Source of the DNA: Acidobacteriaceae bacterium | GTDB taxonomy: Bacteria; Acidobacteriota; Terriglobia; Terriglobales; Acidobacteriaceae | Length of the DNA: 51,120 bases | Direction of reading: 5' to 3' | NCBI GenBank assembly: GCA_025352065.1 | Contig: JANXUC010000171.1 | Coordinates: 1-51,120, forward strand | Shown: one piece after another, positions 2,060 through 8,409 of the stretch | Numbering within the stretch: the stretch's first letter is position 1 | Layout: the number at the start of each line of letters is the position of its first letter | Translations under genes and position numbers: made by a program | Notes under the pieces: model-generated | What the model was told of the DNA's origin: nothing | What the model saw: the letters and a program-made list of their open reading frames with translations, nothing else | Database searches by the model: none

Positions 2060-2088
2060 ATTATAAAAGGTTGCGGCTTAAATGTCTC
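2060..2088 (-). promoter_or_regulatory. Candidate lysR promoter (GAGACA-N17-TATAAT)
   Basis: On the minus strand a perfect -10 TATAAT (2065-2060) lies 17 bp from GAGACA (2088-2083), which matches TTGACA at four positions. The -10 box ends 11 bp before the lysR ATG, so the 5' leader would be only a few bases, consistent with the missing Shine-Dalgarno. It overlaps the end of cysH. Confidence 0.5.
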
Positions 2089-2839
2089 CGTACTTGATGG
2101 GAGGCGGCAGTTGCACAAGCGGTTCCTGCGCGTCTTTCAGATGCAGTCCGCACTCAGTTTTGCCGAAGTTGGCCCAGCGCCCGGAGCGCGGATCTTCACC
2201 GGGTTGCACGGCTCGCGTGCAGTGCGTGCAGCCGATGCTGGGGTAATTGCGGTCGTGCAAAACGTTGTAAGGGACGTCGTGATCGCGGACATACTGCCAG
2301 ACTTGATTGGAGGTCCAGTCAACCATGGGGTTGATCTTTACGATGTCGAATTTGGTATCCCACTCGACCCGTTTTGCGGAAGCGCGGTTGGAGGTTTGAT
2401 CGCGGCGGATAGCAGCGACCCAGGCATTGAGTTCGGCTATTTTGCGCTTTTGCGGCTCGACTTTGCGGAGGTAGCAGCATTGATCGGGATTGTGCGACCA
2501 AAGGGCTGGACCGTATTCTTTCTCTTGCTCTGCCGGACTCAGTTTGGAATATACCTTTTCAATCTGGATGCCGTAACGCTGGTCAACTTTTTCCATGAGA
2601 GCGTAAGTTTCAGGAAACAGGAAGTCGGTATCAATACTAAAAAGACGGAATTTTGGCGTGAGCTTGGAGGCAAGATCGATAAGGACCATGCCTTCAACGC
2701 CGAAGGCGGAGGCGATGGCGACATCTTTGCCGAAGGTGTCGAAGGCCCAGCTTAGCGCCTGTTGAGGAGTCCAGGATTCGGCGGCGGGCTGAACCTGTTC
2801 CACTTCTTTCATTAAACTTTGTTTGGTTGTGGCAATCAT
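2078..2839 (-). CDS. cysH: Assimilatory APS reductase, iron-sulfur type (CysH)
   Basis: A 253-aa thioredoxin-dependent adenylylsulfate reductase that reduces activated sulfate to sulfite in the cytoplasm. The PP-loop-type N-terminal fold is followed by LFSIDTDFLFPETY. The [4Fe-4S] cysteines that separate APS reductases from cluster-free PAPS reductases are present: DQCCYLRKVEP and SIGCTHC. The catalytic cysteine motif KTECGLH sits near the C-terminus. The start is set at the ATG at 2839, which overlaps the cobA stop as ATGA and implies translational coupling; the longer open frame from 2935 would run into cobA. Its product sulfite is the substrate of the sulfite reductase at the head of the operon. 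Confidence 0.95.
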   Translation of the reverse strand: MIATTKQSLMKEVEQVQPAAESWTPQQALSWAFDTFGKDVAIASAFGVEGMVLIDLASKLTPKFRLFSIDTDFLFPETYALMEKVDQRYGIQIEKVYSKLSPAEQEKEYGPALWSHNPDQCCYLRKVEPQKRKIAELNAWVAAIRRDQTSNRASAKRVEWDTKFDIVKINPMVDWTSNQVWQYVRDHDVPYNVLHDRNYPSIGCTHCTRAVQPGEDPRSGRWANFGKTECGLHLKDAQEPLVQLPPPIKYGDI

Positions 2840-3714
2840 CCTTGGTCTCCGGGCGTGCTTTTTTGTGCTTGCGCCGTTAGTGAAACAACAGCTGGGGCAT
2901 CCGTCTCGGTAAAGTTCAGATCTCGCAGCCAACACTCTGAGCCTGGCTCCAACGAGGCATGCGAAGCGAGGCGGACGACTTTTCCTACAAACAACATGGT
3001 GGGTGAGGGCAGGTGCGGTGCTAATGGCAGCTCTCGCAGTGTTGTTCGGTAGACTCGCTCGCCTTCACTCGCGACTTGCGAAACGATTGCGCACGGAGTT
3101 TCGGAGGGGAGTCCACCTTTCACAAGTCTTGCGCTCATCACTGCGTAGTCGTAGCCGGGCATATAAATCGCGTAGGTCACTTTTGTAGAAAGGCTTTCGA
3201 TGAAACCGTCCGGGCGTTGGCCTTTGGCGTGATGGCCTGCGAGAAATACGAGGGCTGAGGAGAGTTCGCGATGTGTGACGGGGATTTGCGCGGCAGCAGC
3301 GGCGGCCAACGCGGAACTTACTCCGGGAATAATTTCTACAGGGATTCCGGCTGCGCGCAGAGCTTCCAACTCCTCGCCTGCTCGGCCGAAAATCAACGGA
3401 TCTCCACCTTTAAGGCGGACTACCTGCAATCCCAAAGATCCGACCGCTACCAGTAAAGCGTTGATTTCGCTCTGCGTCATGCTCGGACGTCCGCAGCGTT
3501 TCCCTACGTTGTGAATCTGTGCCGTTTTCGGAATAAGATTCAGCACCCCGGCCCCTACCAGATCATCGTGGAGCACCACTTCGGCGGAGCGGAGAACGCG
3601 AACGGCTTTCAGCGTGAGTAACTCGGGATCGCCGGGACCTGCACCGACGAGGAAGACCTTGCTCTTCGTCGAGCCCTGATTCATGGTTGTTTGATTCGTT
3701 CGCGTTGGATTCAT
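2836..3714 (-). CDS. cobA: Uroporphyrinogen-III C-methyltransferase
   Basis: A 292-aa SAM-dependent methyltransferase making precorrin-2, the first committed step to siroheme. Family motifs are clear: VFLVGAGPGDPELLTLKA at the N-terminus, VGKRCGRPSMTQ, and VRLKGGDPLIFGRAGEE, followed by IPVEIIPGVSSA. The ATG at 3714 overlaps the upstream stop as ATGA; a second in-frame ATG at 3684 is an alternative. The stop overlaps the cysH start, again as ATGA. With the dehydrogenase upstream it splits the functions that enterobacterial CysG carries in one polypeptide. Siroheme is the cofactor of the sulfite reductase in the same operon. Confidence 0.95.
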   Translation of the reverse strand: MNPTRTNQTTMNQGSTKSKVFLVGAGPGDPELLTLKAVRVLRSAEVVLHDDLVGAGVLNLIPKTAQIHNVGKRCGRPSMTQSEINALLVAVGSLGLQVVRLKGGDPLIFGRAGEELEALRAAGIPVEIIPGVSSALAAAAAAQIPVTHRELSSALVFLAGHHAKGQRPDGFIESLSTKVTYAIYMPGYDYAVMSARLVKGGLPSETPCAIVSQVASEGERVYRTTLRELPLAPHLPSPTMLFVGKVVRLASHASLEPGSECWLRDLNFTETDAPAVVSLTAQAQKSTPGDQG

Positions 3715-4334
3715 GAGCGCACTCCGTTCGTAGTTGGTGCGGCGGTCGAGGTTCGGATGCGACGTGCCTCGAAAGCGCGTTCGCTGGCTAGTTTGTGGAG
3801 GAGACGCTTGCGGCGTTCTGGGGTAAGGGGTCCAGCCATGAGTTTGCGTCGAACGGTCCCTAAGCGCTCCAGCCAGCCTGCGTATTCAGGTCGGATGTGC
3901 GCTTGGATCTCTCGGCGGAGGCGTTGCGCGAGGGCTGGGCTTTGGCCAGCGGTTGAAATCGCCACTTGCAGGCGCCCGCGGCGAACGAGTGCTCCGTAGA
4001 AAAAATCGCAGCGTTCGGGATCGTCGACGGCGTTGCAGAGAATTTCGCGGCGTTGCGCTTCCTGAAACACTGCCTCGTTGACTTCAGGGAGTGAGGTGGC
4101 AGCGATGACCAGAAATACATCTTCTAAGTCTTCGGGCTGGAATGTACGCTGTTCCCAGGTGATGACTCCGGCGTGTGCCCAGCCTTGGACGGACGTGCGG
4201 GCTTCGGGCGCGACGACGCGGACGTTGGCTCCGGCGACGAGGAGGCTGCGGATTTTCGGCTCGCCGATGGTGCCCGCGCCGATGACGAGGCAGTTGCGGC
4301 CTTCCATTTTGAGAAACATTGGGAACAGACTCAT
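3711..4334 (-). CDS. Precorrin-2 dehydrogenase / sirohydrochlorin ferrochelatase (CysG N-terminal type)
   Basis: A 207-aa protein matching the Met8p/CysG N-terminal domain: a Rossmann NAD-binding start (GRNCLVIGAGTIGEPKIRSLL), then LCNAVDDPERCDFFYGALVRRGRLQVAISTAGQSPALA, the family's dimerisation and active-site region, with the expected aspartate in the AVDD segment. It would oxidise precorrin-2 to sirohydrochlorin and may insert iron. The ATG lies about 85 bp downstream of the sir stop; the gap holds a two-hairpin repeat. The stop overlaps the start of cobA. The C-terminal tail is low-complexity and looks unconstrained. Confidence 0.9.
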   Translation of the reverse strand: MSLFPMFLKMEGRNCLVIGAGTIGEPKIRSLLVAGANVRVVAPEARTSVQGWAHAGVITWEQRTFQPEDLEDVFLVIAATSLPEVNEAVFQEAQRREILCNAVDDPERCDFFYGALVRRGRLQVAISTAGQSPALAQRLRREIQAHIRPEYAGWLERLGTVRRKLMAGPLTPERRKRLLHKLASERAFEARRIRTSTAAPTTNGVRS

Positions 4335-4418: not shown

Positions 4419-6119
4419 TCACTCAACACCATGCGGCGTTCGTCCTGGCGAAGCGTCTCGTTCCGCCGCTACAACAACTTCTCCGGCCAGGAAGCTGCGT
4501 AGTTCTACATCTGTATGGCGCGCGAAGAATTTTCGCAGGTTGTCTTCAGACGAGCGCTCGGTCAAATACTGTTTCAGCAGGCGCTCAATCGCTGTGGGGA
4601 CGTCGGTTGCCAAACATCGAAATCCGACAGGCCGCGCAATCGATTGATTCAATCCCACTGCTCCGCCGACGCAGAAGTAATAGGCGTCCTGCATTTGATT
4701 GCCGACTTTGATCTTCTTGCCTTCAATCCCGATGTCGGCGATCCAATGTTGGCCGCAACTGTTCGGGCATCCCGTTACGTGCAGCTTCAGGTGCTGGTCG
4801 AAGCCGGGGAGACGATCTTCGAGTTCTCCCACGAGCCAGCGGGCGTAGCTCTTGGTTTCGGTCAAGGCGAGCTTGCAGAATTCCGAACCGCTGCAAGCGA
4901 CGGCTCCGCGCCAGAAGGGTGAGCCGCCAACTTTGAGGCCGATGGATTCGAGTTCTTTGGCGAGCGGTTCTGCGTTTTGATTGGGAATGTTCACTATCAG
5001 CAAGTTCTGCATGATGGTGGCGCGCAGTTCCCCACTTCCGTAGCGCTCGGACAAGTCGGCGGTGGCGTGCATTTGTTCGGGGGTGATGCGTCCGCGCAGG
5101 ACGGAGGCTCCGATGTAGCTGTAGCCTTCCTGCTTCTGGGGACGAATGCCGACGTGGTCGCGAAAGACGTCGTCGGGAGCAGTTTCTTCGGCTGCGGGCT
5201 CGAGGCGGAACTTGATGCGCTGTTCCAGTTCACTCAAGAAGCTTTCGGCGGTCCAGCCTTGTTTCAGAAACAGATATTTCAGGCGTGCGCGGTCACGGCT
5301 CTCGCGGAGGACATCGCTATCGCGAAAGATTTCCGCCACGGTCTTCATGACGGGAATTACTTGATTCCATTGCACAAAGGCGTTGAGTTTGGTGGCGAGA
5401 TGCGGCTCGGTCGAGAGCCCTCCACCTACGCGCAGCGCGAAACCAACTTCAGACTTGCCGTGAAGCTTTCGTTCCACCGCAGTCAGACCAATGTCGTTAA
5501 TCTCCGGATAGGCGCACCAGACGCTGCATCCGGTCACGCAGATCTTGAACTTGCGCGGCAGATTGAAAAAGTCGTTATTGCCGGCGAAGAGCTGCGTGGC
5601 TTGATGGACGAGAGGAGAGGCGTCGCAAATTTCTTCTGCATCGACACCGGCCAACGGGCAACCGGTGACGTTGCGAACTACGTCACCGCAGGCGCCTAAG
5701 GTATTCAAGCCTACTTTCCAGAGGCGCTCTAATATGTCGGGAAGCGACTCGACTGCGATCCAATGCAATTGGATATTCTGCCGCACCGTGATGTCGGCGA
5801 CGCCTCGGGCATACTGTTCTGCAATCGTGGCAATCGTGCGCAGTTGATGGGCGTGCAGGATGCCATTCGGAATCCGAATGCGCAGCATGAAATAAGGGAC
5901 AGCTTTGCCCTCGCCGCCTTTGCCGCCGAGAACTCCGGCACCGTCGCCTTGCGTGTAGAGTCCCCACCAGCGGAAATACGTGTTCAGCCACTCCGGCGGA
6001 ATGGCGTCGAAACCTTCGCGCGCGAAGCGCCGAATCTCGGCGAGGCCTTCCCAGGGATTGAGTTCGCGTTTCAGGCGTTCGGCGCGCTGCGCTTTTGTCT
6101 CTTTGGTTGGTTCAGTCAT
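4419..6119 (-). CDS. sir: Ferredoxin-type sulfite (nitrite) reductase
   Basis: A 566-aa siroheme-[4Fe-4S] reductase with the duplicated family layout. Ferredoxin-like halves and siroheme-binding segments are visible (TVRQNIQLHW, GDVVRNVTGCP). The cluster ligands follow the family pattern: C409 and C415 (ACSGSEFCKLA) and C451 and C455 (TGCPNSCGQHW). Sequence alone does not separate sulfite from nitrite reductase; the neighbours cysH, cobA and the dehydrogenase argue for sulfite. The ATG at 6119 is chosen because a GGGGAA stretch precedes it by about 7 bases; the upstream in-frame ATG at 6149 has no ribosome site. Expression is likely controlled by the attenuator upstream (6161-6348). Confidence 0.92.
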   Translation of the reverse strand: MTEPTKETKAQRAERLKRELNPWEGLAEIRRFAREGFDAIPPEWLNTYFRWWGLYTQGDGAGVLGGKGGEGKAVPYFMLRIRIPNGILHAHQLRTIATIAEQYARGVADITVRQNIQLHWIAVESLPDILERLWKVGLNTLGACGDVVRNVTGCPLAGVDAEEICDASPLVHQATQLFAGNNDFFNLPRKFKICVTGCSVWCAYPEINDIGLTAVERKLHGKSEVGFALRVGGGLSTEPHLATKLNAFVQWNQVIPVMKTVAEIFRDSDVLRESRDRARLKYLFLKQGWTAESFLSELEQRIKFRLEPAAEETAPDDVFRDHVGIRPQKQEGYSYIGASVLRGRITPEQMHATADLSERYGSGELRATIMQNLLIVNIPNQNAEPLAKELESIGLKVGGSPFWRGAVACSGSEFCKLALTETKSYARWLVGELEDRLPGFDQHLKLHVTGCPNSCGQHWIADIGIEGKKIKVGNQMQDAYYFCVGGAVGLNQSIARPVGFRCLATDVPTAIERLLKQYLTERSSEDNLRKFFARHTDVELRSFLAGEVVVAAERDASPGRTPHGVE

Positions 6120-6160
6120 AGGTGAATTCCCCTGCAGGGCTGCACACATTTCGCGGGCCC

Positions 6161-6196
6161 AAAAACAAAACCGCCGCAGGTGTTAGATTGGGCGGT
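6161..6196 (-). terminator. Intrinsic terminator in the sir leader (attenuator)
   Basis: On the minus strand ACCGCC (6196-6191) and GGCGGT (6175-6170) form a 6-bp GC-rich stem with a 15-nt loop, followed at once by TTTGTTTTT (6169-6161). It lies downstream of the Cys-rich leader ORF and about 40 bp upstream of the sir start, where an attenuator would be expected. No other gene ends here, so a terminator at this place makes sense mainly as a conditional one. Confidence 0.7.
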
Positions 6197-6248
6197 AGGT
6201 CGTCGCGATGCCTTTTTTCAGGAAATATGGAGGTCAGCCGCTCACCCG

Positions 6249-6288
6249 CGCCAAGATGTGCTTAGGCACAACAACAGCACAACATCTT
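6249..6288 (-). promoter_or_regulatory. Hairpin over the Cys codons and candidate antiterminator strand
   Basis: AAGATGT (6288-6282) plus TGC (6279-6277) can pair with GCACATCTT (6261-6253), enclosing the Cys codons of the leader ORF. Just downstream, TTGGCG (6254-6249) can pair with CGCCCAA (6194-6188, one bulged base), which includes part of the terminator's 5' arm and would block it. A ribosome at the leader stop codon would cover TTGGCG; one stalled on the Cys codons would not. The pairing was found by eye and has not been folded. Confidence 0.5.
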
Positions 6289-6312
6289 AACGTGATCACG
6301 GGTTAAGGTCAT
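6262..6312 (-). CDS. Cys-rich leader peptide, 16 aa (MTLTRDHVKMLCCCCA)
   Basis: A 16-codon ORF encoding MTLTRDHVKMLCCCCA and ending in TAA (6264-6262). Four consecutive codons are cysteine (TGC TGT TGT TGT, 6279-6268), the rarest kind of run for a bacterial protein, and the downstream genes make cysteine precursors. The ATG at 6312-6310 lies 7 bp after a -10 box, so the mRNA would begin at or next to the start codon (leaderless); an internal ATG at 6285 would give MLCCCCA. Cys-rich leader peptides controlling downstream sulfur genes are known from mycobacteria; here the downstream hairpins suggest classical ribosome-stalling attenuation: ample Cys-tRNA lets the terminator form, scarcity lets the operon be read. 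Confidence 0.75.
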   Translation of the reverse strand: MTLTRDHVKMLCCCCA

Positions 6313-6319
6313 GGGCTAG

Positions 6320-6348
6320 ATACTAGAAGCGCGAGTGCGGAGTGTCAA
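6320..6348 (-). promoter_or_regulatory. sir operon promoter, TTGACA-N17-TAGTAT
   Basis: On the minus strand a perfect -35 TTGACA (6348-6343) is separated by exactly 17 bp from TAGTAT (6325-6320), five of six matches to TATAAT. Seven bases separate the -10 box from the ATG of the leader ORF, so the predicted start of transcription falls on or one base before that ATG. This is the best vegetative-type promoter in the window. Confidence 0.8.
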
Positions 6349-6425
6349 TTCTTGGTCTACCAGAACGATTACAAATTTGGATAGCTTGGATCGCAAATTC
6401 GATTGACCCGACCTCAGGACTTGAT

Positions 6426-6455
6426 ACCACCGAGGACGCTGAGGTACGCAGAGGA
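6426..6455 (+). repeat. CCACAGAGGACACTGAGG-type interspersed repeat, copy 1
   Basis: The stretch ACCACCGAGGACGCTGAG plus GTACGCAGAGGA matches, with a few substitutions, the stretch at 14747-14777. Both lie outside intact genes and in the same orientation. Purine-rich, with GAGG repeated at intervals of about 10 bases. Confidence 0.55.
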
Positions 6456-6548
6456 AAGGCTCGGGGGGGAGGAGAACTGAAAGAGCTTCGGCCAAGGCCC
6501 TTTGGATAGCGCTTCAAAGATGACTTGGACAATCTCCCGCTTCAGTGC

Positions 6549-6574
6549 GGCGAGCAGGAATGCTCGTCCTAGAC
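6549..6574 (+). repeat. GAGCAGGAATGCTC palindromic repeat, copy 1
   Basis: GGCGAGCAGGAATGCTCGTC followed by CTAGAC. The core is a palindromic hairpin with a GGAA loop (CGAGCA/TGCTCG). Clear relatives lie at 14860-14885, 17989-18014 and 21025-21050, all with the CCTACAC-like tail on the plus-strand side. Here it lies just past the end of the decayed acyltransferase gene. The rest of 6349-6589 shows nothing else recognisable. Confidence 0.75.
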
Positions 6575-6589
6575 GGTTTTGACTTGCGC

Positions 6590-8409
6590 TCAGTAGCGAT
6601 CCTGCAGAGTCGGCAATCCGTGATGCCGTCGGAAGGCCGCCAAGCCGGTTTTCCCATGTAGCGCTCGATCGAGGCAGGTTCCGTCTGGCGCAAATCCATC
6701 ACGACCAAGCCGTCGGGGACATGAGAGAACTTGGGATCGACGTTGAAGCCCAGCAAACGCCCTCCTAGGCGGCTGTAGTGTTTCAGTAGAATCGGAATGC
6801 CTTTGCCGTCGTCTTCCATATCGGTGATGGGATCGGAGAGTTGGTCGAGTTCCAGCATGGAGTGGTTGATCGAGCGGCAATCCCAGGAGCGAATTCGTCC
6901 CGGGCGGAACGGGCGGCGGGGACGAACCAGGGGACCCAGTTCGTCGGCAGCGCTGCGCGATTTGAAGAAACGGTCGATCAAATCGCAGGACGCCCGCGTG
7001 TAACGTTCGCTAATACTGACGGCTCCAAACAAAATAGGTGTTTCGGGATGTGCCGCAACGTAGCGCGCAATTCCCTACCACAGCAGCAACAACAACGGTG
7101 CGTACTGGCGTTGATACTCGGGACGTACGAACGAGCGACCTAGTTCCATAGCTGGGCCAAGTTTTCCGAAGAAACTGTGTCGTATTGGAACAGCGAACTC
7201 GTAAAGAGTCCGGCCACACCGCGTTGCGGCAGGATGTCGGTGGTATTTCCCAGGCGATAGGCGCCCACCAACTCCTGCTTCTGCTTGTGCCACAACATCA
7301 CGTGGTCGTAGTAGCTGTCGAAAGCGTCCAGGTCGGTGCCGCAGCCTGTGCCTTCGCCTGCCTCGCGGAAGGTGACTTCGCGCAGGCGTCCTAACTCGGG
7401 AAGAAGATTCGGAATCTGAGCTTCGCGGGCAGTAAAGACCGTGAACTCGCGGCCATCGTCCAAGATTTGATCCGTGCGCAGGTTATCAATGTCGCTGAGC
7501 AGAGCTTCGGTGGCTACCGGACGGGTAAGGCGCTCCTGCCACTTTTTGGGCAGCACGGGCAGCAACACGGCGGGGAGTCTGGCTTTCTCCGAGCTGCGTT
7601 GAGCCCGCAGATGAGCGCGCCAGCGCAGATATTCGGTAGCCTTTTCGTCGCTTTCCATCCCGGCCACAACCGTTGCCGGAACGGCGCGGCCGATGCGCAT
7701 TTCCACCGTGCGACCCTTCTGCGAGAGAAACTCGTTGAGTAGGAGCGCCGAGCGCAGGCTGGGATGAACTAGCCCTAGCGCCTGCAATATATTACTGTTC
7801 CTCCCTCGGAAATACACGGGGAGAGTCGCAGCACCCGTCATGCGAGCCAAACGCGCTGCGGCGGGGCTCCATCTGGGGTCGGCCACCTTCGGACGGGGCA
7901 ATTGCAGGTGCGAAACTTCGCCTGCGGGAAACATCACTAACATGCCCCCTTGACGCAGCCAGCGCGCATTGCAGCAGTGCAGTTCCATTGCTTGCAACGG
8001 CTCCTTTGCTGCCAAAAGGATCGGCAAAAATGCAGTGCTCTTGCAGCTCTTCGATCTCGCGGAGCAGTACGTTGGTGACAATCTTTACATCGGGACGCAC
8101 GCGGCTCATCACCGCGCCGAGGACTGCGCCGTCCAGGATGCCAGAAGGATGGTTGGAGACGACGAGTACGGGACCCGTCGCCGGGATGCGGGACATTTCC
8201 TGCTCGTCCAGGCTGCGCTCGATGCGCATTTCCGAGAGCACGTTTTCGAGCAGACTTTCGCTCCCCTCCGGGCGGGCACGACGGTAGAGATCCTGAATCT
8301 GGCCCAAGGGTAGGAGCTTTTCCATCACAGTTCTGCCGGCCAGCCCGTCGCGCACGCCAGCCAAGCGCTCCGCAGTGGGATCCCGTCTGAAAAGTGATAG
8401 ATTCGGCAT
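6590..8409 (-). pseudogene. PlsC-type acyltransferase plus hemolysin-like GNAT N-acyltransferase, decayed
   Basis: Read across frames this is one roughly 600-residue gene. The N-terminal part is a PlsC-like acyltransferase (VLVVSNHPSGILDG, FADPFGSKGA, then MLVMFPAGEVSH). The C-terminal part is an OlsB/hemolysin-type GNAT acyltransferase (LGRSFVRPEYQ, then LLLLW, HPETPILFGAVSISERY). Such fusions are thought to act in ornithine-lipid-type membrane lipid synthesis. The frame changes near 7960-7972, near 7165-7180 and near 6650-6658 (at a GGGAAAAC run), and an in-frame TAG at 7077-7075 replaces the lysine expected in LLLLWKGI. Four independent lesions make sequencing error an unlikely sole cause. 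The longest pieces, 7792-8409 and 7140-8081, would not give a full enzyme. Confidence 0.8.

Follow-up and report, generated by a model that had tools for sequence, protein, structure and literature searches.

In the classical enterobacterial attenuators (trp, his, thr and ilv), a leader carries codons for the end product of the pathway, its RNA pairs as 1:2, 2:3 or 3:4, and an intrinsic terminator stands before the first gene. Cys leader open reading frames (ORFs) of Actinobacteria are reportedly the subject of work by Canestrari in 2020. In that phylum such ORFs lie before cysteine and sulfur genes and attenuation has been proposed (excerpts of Seliverstov 2005, PMC1262725, and Shell 2015, PMC4633059); as far as the excerpt of PMC1262725 goes, these leaders have no conserved hairpins able to be terminators. 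In the literature searched, which covers subscription papers poorly, we found no report of acidobacterial Cys-leader attenuation.

Here we describe a Cys-codon leader in the window, the whole stretch of 51,120 nt that was analyzed from an Acidobacteriaceae bacterium (contig JANXUC010000171.1). We consider it very likely that the operon sir-siroheme-cobA-cysH is governed by this leader through ribosome-mediated transcription attenuation, with a leaderless ORF and with charged tRNA-Cys as the signal sensed.

Promoter, leader ORF and operon of the window

A sequence-only reading of this DNA had described a 16-codon ORF with four Cys codons, lying between a promoter and a sir-siroheme-cysH operon. 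Both the coordinates and the peptide proved right, on the minus strand. It had overlooked the leaderless spacing, the shortened ORF of the window, and the occurrence of the device beyond sir and beyond cysteine. Along the minus strand, the promoter is followed by the 16-codon ORF, a GC-rich block (6261-6241), a terminator-like hairpin and the operon:

6343..6348 (-): -35 hexamer TTGACA; TTGA is a conserved column block in a 30-sequence alignment
6320..6325 (-): -10 hexamer TAGTAT, 7 nt 5′ of the leader ATG
6262..6312 (-): leader ORF MTLTRDHVKMLCCCCA, 16 codons plus TAA (ATG 6312-6310, stop 6264-6262)
6268..6279 (-): run of four Cys codons, TGC TGT TGT TGT, inside the leader ORF
6276..6303 (-): segment 1, inside the ORF, protector partner of segment 2 (predicted fold, full leader)
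6241..6261 (-): segment 2 (GCACATCTTGGCGCGGGTGAG), partner of segment 1 or 3 (alignment and predicted fold)
6188..6201 (-): segment 3 (GACCTACCGCCCAA), antiterminator partner and terminator 5′ arm (alignment and predicted fold)
6161..6204 (-): predicted intrinsic terminator (segments 3:4), ACCGCC...GGCGGT plus U-run TTTTGTTTTT (6170-6161), -12.2 kcal/mol
4419..6119 (-): sir, two-domain sulfite (or nitrite) reductase, first gene of the operon (Pfam NIR_SIR and NIR_SIR_ferr)
3711..4334 (-): siroheme synthase, N-terminal type (Pfam/NCBIfam)
2836..3714 (-): uroporphyrinogen-III C-methyltransferase, cobA (Pfam/NCBIfam)
2078..2935 (-): cysH, phosphoadenylyl-sulfate reductase (NCBIfam NF002537, above cut-off)

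The promoter hexamers are separated by a 17-nt spacer and match the consensus at 10/12 positions in a promoter scan of the minus strand, where the interval 6080-6600 holds one site of such quality against a mean of 0.2 in shuffles. Because the gap between the -10 box and the leader ATG is so short, transcription is expected to begin on the ATG or immediately beside it, with no space for a Shine-Dalgarno sequence. Relatives share this arrangement. A TANNNT motif ends 6-11 nt 5′ of the candidate short ORF (sORF) ATG in 109/134 leaders, with a peak at 6 and 7, a count somewhat favored by picking the best in-frame ATG of each leader. Taken per ATG, free of such choice, the frequencies at distances 6 and 7 are 12.5% and 11.4% (281 ATGs), and the control gives about 0.3-1.2% per distance (1105 reverse-strand ATGs). 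The -10 spacing thus suggests that the sORF is leaderless or nearly so. Leaderless genes have been estimated at 13.3% in three acidobacterial genomes, according to an excerpt of PMC3160421.

The sir product scores below every NCBIfam equivalog cut-off, and its assignment to sulfite rather than nitrite is drawn from operon context. An in-frame upstream ATG at 6149 offers an alternative start for sir; 6119 is the one that aligns with relatives. After cysH, on the same strand, lies a gene for a LysR-family regulator (1158-2048), which may form a second layer of control on the operon.

Recurrence of Cys-rich leaders before sir

To place the leader among its relatives, we looked for sir in 200 genomes of the same family and obtained matches in 152, and the best 80 of 589 named sir loci were used. 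These 80 are mostly from Acidobacteriaceae, Acidobacteria, Terriglobia and Ca. Sulfotelmatobacter, with 15 from Methylomirabilota/Rokubacteria and single records of other groups. Family and named loci together, minus duplicates and regions shorter than 200 nt, form a pooled set of 179 distinct sir upstream regions.

The sequence-only reading expected a Cys run to recur before sir in relatives, and it does so in all of the 29 closest relatives whose loci were fetched. Among further family regions, an ATG-started sORF with at least three Cys in six residues is found in 58/80, as opposed to 4/110 reverse strands and 3% of shuffles; over the pooled set, an ATG-started Cys-rich sORF is present in 134/179. 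A strict rule, requiring at least four of one residue in six and a -10 box 6-11 nt before the ATG, was applied to all 20 residues: Cys gives 82/179, and every other residue gives at most 1 on either strand. When any ATG is accepted, with or without the -10 box, the counts are Cys 103, Arg 17, Ala 11, Ser 9, Leu 8 and Val 5 of 179. Given this Cys-specific enrichment under the -10 rule, we reject coincidence and alternative frames as the explanation. The bare pattern TGYTGYTGYTGY is not enriched in the window's own genome (35 matches, 34 for the reversed control), and among 30 matches examined there, 3 fall in short ORFs (fewer than 40 codons between stops) with an in-frame ATG, including the leader sORF.

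An ATG-started Cys sORF is absent from 45/179 regions, namely the 15 of Methylomirabilota/Rokubacteria (0/15) and 30 others; laxer rules find a Cys-rich ORF in 10 of these 30, some probably by chance. Four Rokubacteria regions (L177, L184, L200 and L211) have a strong terminator-like hairpin about 20 nt upstream of sir. The sir leader of Terracidiphilus gabretensis (L215) reads MNRFSCCPCCSLLIAARATC.

Codon usage in the leaders departs from that of the genes. TGT accounts for 501/779 Cys codons in the 134 sir-region leaders, and for 22/227 in 21 sir genes, where TGC makes up the other 205/227. This preference may reflect slower decoding or a constraint on the RNA.

Terminator, alternative pairings and competing explanations

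In the mechanism that we propose, transcription would start at or next to the leader ATG and a ribosome would load on the RNA 5′ end. When Cys-tRNA is plentiful, the ribosome would pass the Cys codons and leave, allowing 1:2 to form (or, in relatives, would cover segment 2 itself); segment 3 would then pair with segment 4 and RNA polymerase would terminate. When Cys-tRNA is scarce, the ribosome would wait on the Cys run, covering segment 1 and freeing segment 2, and 2:3 would pair before segment 4 is made. The terminator would then not form in time, and the operon would be transcribed.

A hairpin of -10 kcal/mol or lower with a U-run is found in 125/179 sir upstream regions, against 12 reverse strands and 8 shuffles; four of the 125 are Rokubacteria regions without a Cys sORF. 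The window hairpin (-12.2 kcal/mol) is weaker than that of 27/29 close relatives (-19.0 to -29.8), the other two having been misplaced by the script, and it was missed by a simple promoter/terminator scanner because the loop limit of that scanner is 8. Directly 5′ of the terminator, most close relatives carry a block with the consensus C.GCAcT.AT, which is harder to recognize in the window (about 6215-6204) and is perhaps a polymerase pause site.

The same hairpin might instead govern translation, hiding the sir ribosome-binding site until stalling at Cys codons opens it, with termination secondary. A possible sir start lies at most 14 nt after the hairpin in 22/107 leaders, placing the 3′ arm (GGCGGUGGG) at the Shine-Dalgarno position, as in ...CTGGCGGTGGGTTTTTTTATG, and the mycobacterial case regulates translation of downstream genes, according to an excerpt of a review (PMC9031893). 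The window is among those 22 only through the upstream ATG at 6149; counted from 6119, its sir begins about 40 nt beyond the U-run. In the remaining 85/107 leaders every candidate start, including the one furthest upstream, is separated from the hairpin by more than 14 nt, and the U-run that follows it in the 125 regions resembles that of an intrinsic terminator. We therefore regard control at the level of translation as unlikely.

Transcription attenuation further requires that the terminator compete with other pairings. Downstream of the Cys run, the close-clade consensus CTGGCGcrGGGaGG mimics the terminator 3′ arm and can pair with the 5′ arm CCCACCGCCAG. In the 110 leaders with both parts, the median distance from the last Cys codon is 12.5 nt to the beginning of segment 2 (10-90%: 3-19) and 39 nt to the end of the ORF stop. 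Given the usual size of a ribosome footprint, segment 2 would start at about the point where a ribosome waiting on the last Cys codon should end.

Pairing was then compared between own and swapped partners among mutually dissimilar leaders, in 12 random sets of 14-18. Own partners are better for 1:2 (p 0.0003-0.004) and for 2:3 (p 0.0003-0.032), and the control window over the 12 sets gives p 0.14-0.96. A single set (n=16) with three control windows gives p 0.004 for 2:3 and 0.085, 0.48 and 0.85 for the controls. An initial test over all leaders was weak, with a median z of -1.66 and 42% below -2. Compensatory changes are sparse in the close clade, as the sequences of the 30-sequence alignment are too conserved. 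By eye, linked changes of segments 2, 3 and 4 can be seen in three leaders (L018, L026 and L032), for one of which (L026) the program chose another register, and in the window UUGG:CCAA replaces CUGG:CCAG between segments 2 and 3. The leaders thus appear to offer three mutually exclusive pairings, 1:2, 2:3 and 3:4, as in a classical attenuator. The sequence-only reading had already taken the locus for an attenuator, and the comparative evidence for terminator, antiterminator and protector pairings supports that part; the sensing of tRNA-Cys itself we infer.

The global fold of the whole window leader is no more stable than shuffles (z 0.60). Folded without a ribosome, the window leader adopts 1:2 and 3:4, with 12.1 expected 3:4 pairs. 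Placing a ribosome on the first Cys codon yields about 10 expected 2:3 pairs in the RNA that precedes synthesis of segment 4, and reduces 3:4 in the full leader to 0.7 expected pairs. The stalled ribosome does not make 2:3 dominant in this full leader (2.7 expected pairs), where segment 2 pairs with sequence further 3′. When the stall is moved to the fourth Cys codon, 3:4 retains 2.2 expected pairs. With the ribosome at the stop codon, 3:4 returns to 9.8 and 2:3 can form earlier, with 8.0 expected pairs before segment 4, so the off state of the window would lean on ribosome release and 1:2. Among relatives, a ribosome stalled on the last Cys codon gives 5 or more expected 2:3 pairs ahead of segment 4 synthesis in 93/110 leaders, and one at the stop does so in 2/110, a low count to which the masking of segment 2 contributes. 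At equilibrium, the full leaders of relatives form the terminator with or without a stalled ribosome (median expected 3:4 pairs 12.7 and 12.8), and the switch must therefore be kinetic.

The leader ORF of the window is shorter than those of its relatives. Among 27 scored close relatives, the stop lies past segment 2 and ends 36-45 nt 3′ of the final Cys codon, a distance that shrinks to 6 nt in the window. Some relatives encode long Cys-rich peptides, and VSSGAGRLLT exemplifies a tail that many of these share in similar form. The DNA block that encodes this tail is kept in the window, untranslated, after the TAA, and the distal stop codon of the relatives is lost there. Since the block is retained without translation, the constraint on the RNA is separable from that on the peptide.

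These observations bear on whether the peptide itself acts, as a Cys-rich product that binds metal, senses redox or arrests the ribosome by its sequence. The long Cys-rich peptides and their shared tail would fit such a role. The tail is missing from the window and from many diverged leaders, the block is explained as RNA segment 2, and the same chassis bears Thr, Val/Ile or Trp codons before other genes, as codon sensing expects; we hold an action of the peptide to be very improbable. That the sORF is untranslated, an RNA element only or a product of chance, is scarcely credible: conservation is higher in the RNA block than in the 5′ portion of the ORF, and TTGTTGTTG reads as Leu or Val in other frames, but among ATGs with a spaced -10 box the Cys frame occurs in 82/179 regions and the Leu and Val frames in 0, the stop keeps its 36-45 nt position in the 27 close relatives, and the distal stop is lost in the early-stopping window.

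Two further candidates were rejected. Ribosome reinitiation operates at short leader-gene distances (excerpt of PMC4833913) and was set aside, the leader stop lying more than 100 nt from the sir start in the window. A known riboswitch or Rfam leader found no support, as Rfam 15 gave no gathering-score match in the window, where a scan of 5900-6600 returned one sub-threshold match elsewhere (E 1.9), and 15 related loci gave two tRNAs only.

A shared chassis with other codon runs

A covariance model (R1) built from 30 leaders was searched at a threshold of E 0.01 per genome; E-values being per genome, about 3/300 genomes could pass by chance. Matches were found in 124/300 family genomes, 91/250 class genomes (20 of them family members) and 23/294 phylum genomes (12 of them family members). 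From these we fetched a subset, 40 family matches away from known sir sites and 40 class or phylum matches. Leader classes were assigned by eye, and the target gene was taken as the longest ORF starting within 900 nt (family) or 700 nt (class/phylum), so that a small ORF may intervene, as it does at several encapsulin loci. Gene names come from Pfam searches of 20 representatives and from blastp clusters.

Cys-rich leaders make up 31/40 of the fetched family matches. Their targets are type 2A encapsulin (SrpI-like) 8, siroheme 7, sulfite/nitrite reductase 6, cysK-like 4, cysD-like 2, NMT1-type binding protein 2, class V aminotransferase 1 and Cons_hypoth698 1. Three of the 31 are less regular: L257 is truncated by its contig start, the terminator of L275 is broken, and L289 has no more than three Cys, which are scattered. 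The other family matches are Thr/Ile/Met-rich leaders in 8/40, before aspartokinase (7) or homoserine dehydrogenase (1), and a Val/Ile leader before ilvC in 1/40.

In class and phylum, 33/40 fetched matches have Cys-rich leaders. They precede rhodanese 10, sulfite/nitrite reductase 6 (including orthologs of the window sir), cysD-like 4, TauE 3, siroheme 3, cysH-like 1 and sulfur transporter 1, and five have no clear sulfur gene (TonB-type 2, porin 1, PQQ enzyme 1, contig end 1). For the TonB-type receptor, porin and PQQ-enzyme genes, which follow the Cys-rich leaders at L314, L315, L316 and L333, a sulfur role is not obvious. Thr leaders before aspartokinase account for 3/40, Trp leaders for 3/40, and aspartate-semialdehyde dehydrogenase, with no clear run, for 1/40. 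The Thr-rich leaders, such as MMTTFTKRITSTKSMSTTSTTTTSTILASGAWRNS, precede aspartokinase in Acidobacteriota (L342, L343 and L344) and resemble the enterobacterial thr leader. Leaders with WYWW, CWW and WWW (L348, L350 and L353) stand before DAHP synthase, trpE and a third gene in other acidobacterial families.

R1 matches the window's own genome at three places, sir, ilvC (MNSRLHTIAVVARISSRVQIIVRHGALLEESIC) and aspartokinase (MIRAIQEISATTANPPITGMRIIIPMAEGHG), the latter two weakly (E 7e-5 and 0.009), so that a single Cys copy was found. The ilvC leader (L253, C149) is Val/Ile-rich and the aspartokinase leader (L295, C165) Ile/Thr-rich. A general terminator motif of the genome does not lie behind the matches: the exact arrangement CCCACCGCC-N4-20-GGTGGGTTTT occurs only once there, in the ilvC leader. 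A segment-2 pattern with at most two mismatches matched in 12 of 200 genomes and was too strict to add anything. In the Terracidiphilus gabretensis genome, R1 gave no match despite the Cys run of its sir leader, and the model therefore misses diverged members.

Eight loci (L261, L265, L266, L269, L273, L279, L288 and L291) have a Cys-rich leader and terminator at most 0.9 kb before a type 2A encapsulin, the shell gene being identified by Pfam (SrpI-like) and by its nearest solved chain, 6x8m. A cyanobacterial relative, SrpI, rises on sulfate starvation and holds cysteine desulfurase (excerpt of PMC8049743). These leaders point to a possible link between cysteine supply and the sulfur nanocompartment.

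On balance, we favor a phylum-level regulon whose attenuators are leaderless and share one chassis with swapped codon runs (Cys, Thr/Ile, Val/Ile and Trp). Its Cys branch would join assimilation to encapsulin sulfur storage, rhodanese chemistry and sulfur transport, and some hairpins would be both terminator and lid of a ribosome-binding site. For this set of acidobacterial attenuators, the analysis proposes what they probably do, which residue they would sense and a mechanism open to testing. It also supplies a candidate list for the cysteine regulon of a group of soil bacteria, including the possible control link to encapsulin sulfur compartments. If the mechanism is true, cysteine-sensing attenuation with a complete terminator and antiterminator exists outside Actinobacteria, and attenuation works with leaderless leader ORFs in Acidobacteriota.

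Rfam amino-acid leaders and riboswitches are alike in being cis-acting leader RNAs before biosynthetic genes, and the leader matches none of their families. Like the mycobacterial polycysteine sORFs, it is a short ORF with a Cys run near its end, lies before cysteine and sulfur genes and, judged here by -10 spacing, would be leaderless. Unlike the actinobacterial leaders, it has terminator, antiterminator and protector pairings, belongs to another phylum and shares its chassis with Thr/Ile, Val/Ile and Trp leaders; because a terminator hairpin is present, we do not file it in the mycobacterial polycysteine family. With the enterobacterial attenuators it has in common the run of end-product codons in the leader, the 1:2, 2:3 and 3:4 pairings and a predicted terminator before the first gene. 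It differs from them in its amino acid, cysteine, in a leader that would sit at the RNA 5′ end without a Shine-Dalgarno sequence, in an ORF that runs through segment 2 in most relatives and, in some, in a terminator 3′ arm that overlaps the likely ribosome-binding site of the first gene. Our best reading is that the leader works like trp attenuation and is similar to the mycobacterial type, but with a terminator and an antiterminator.
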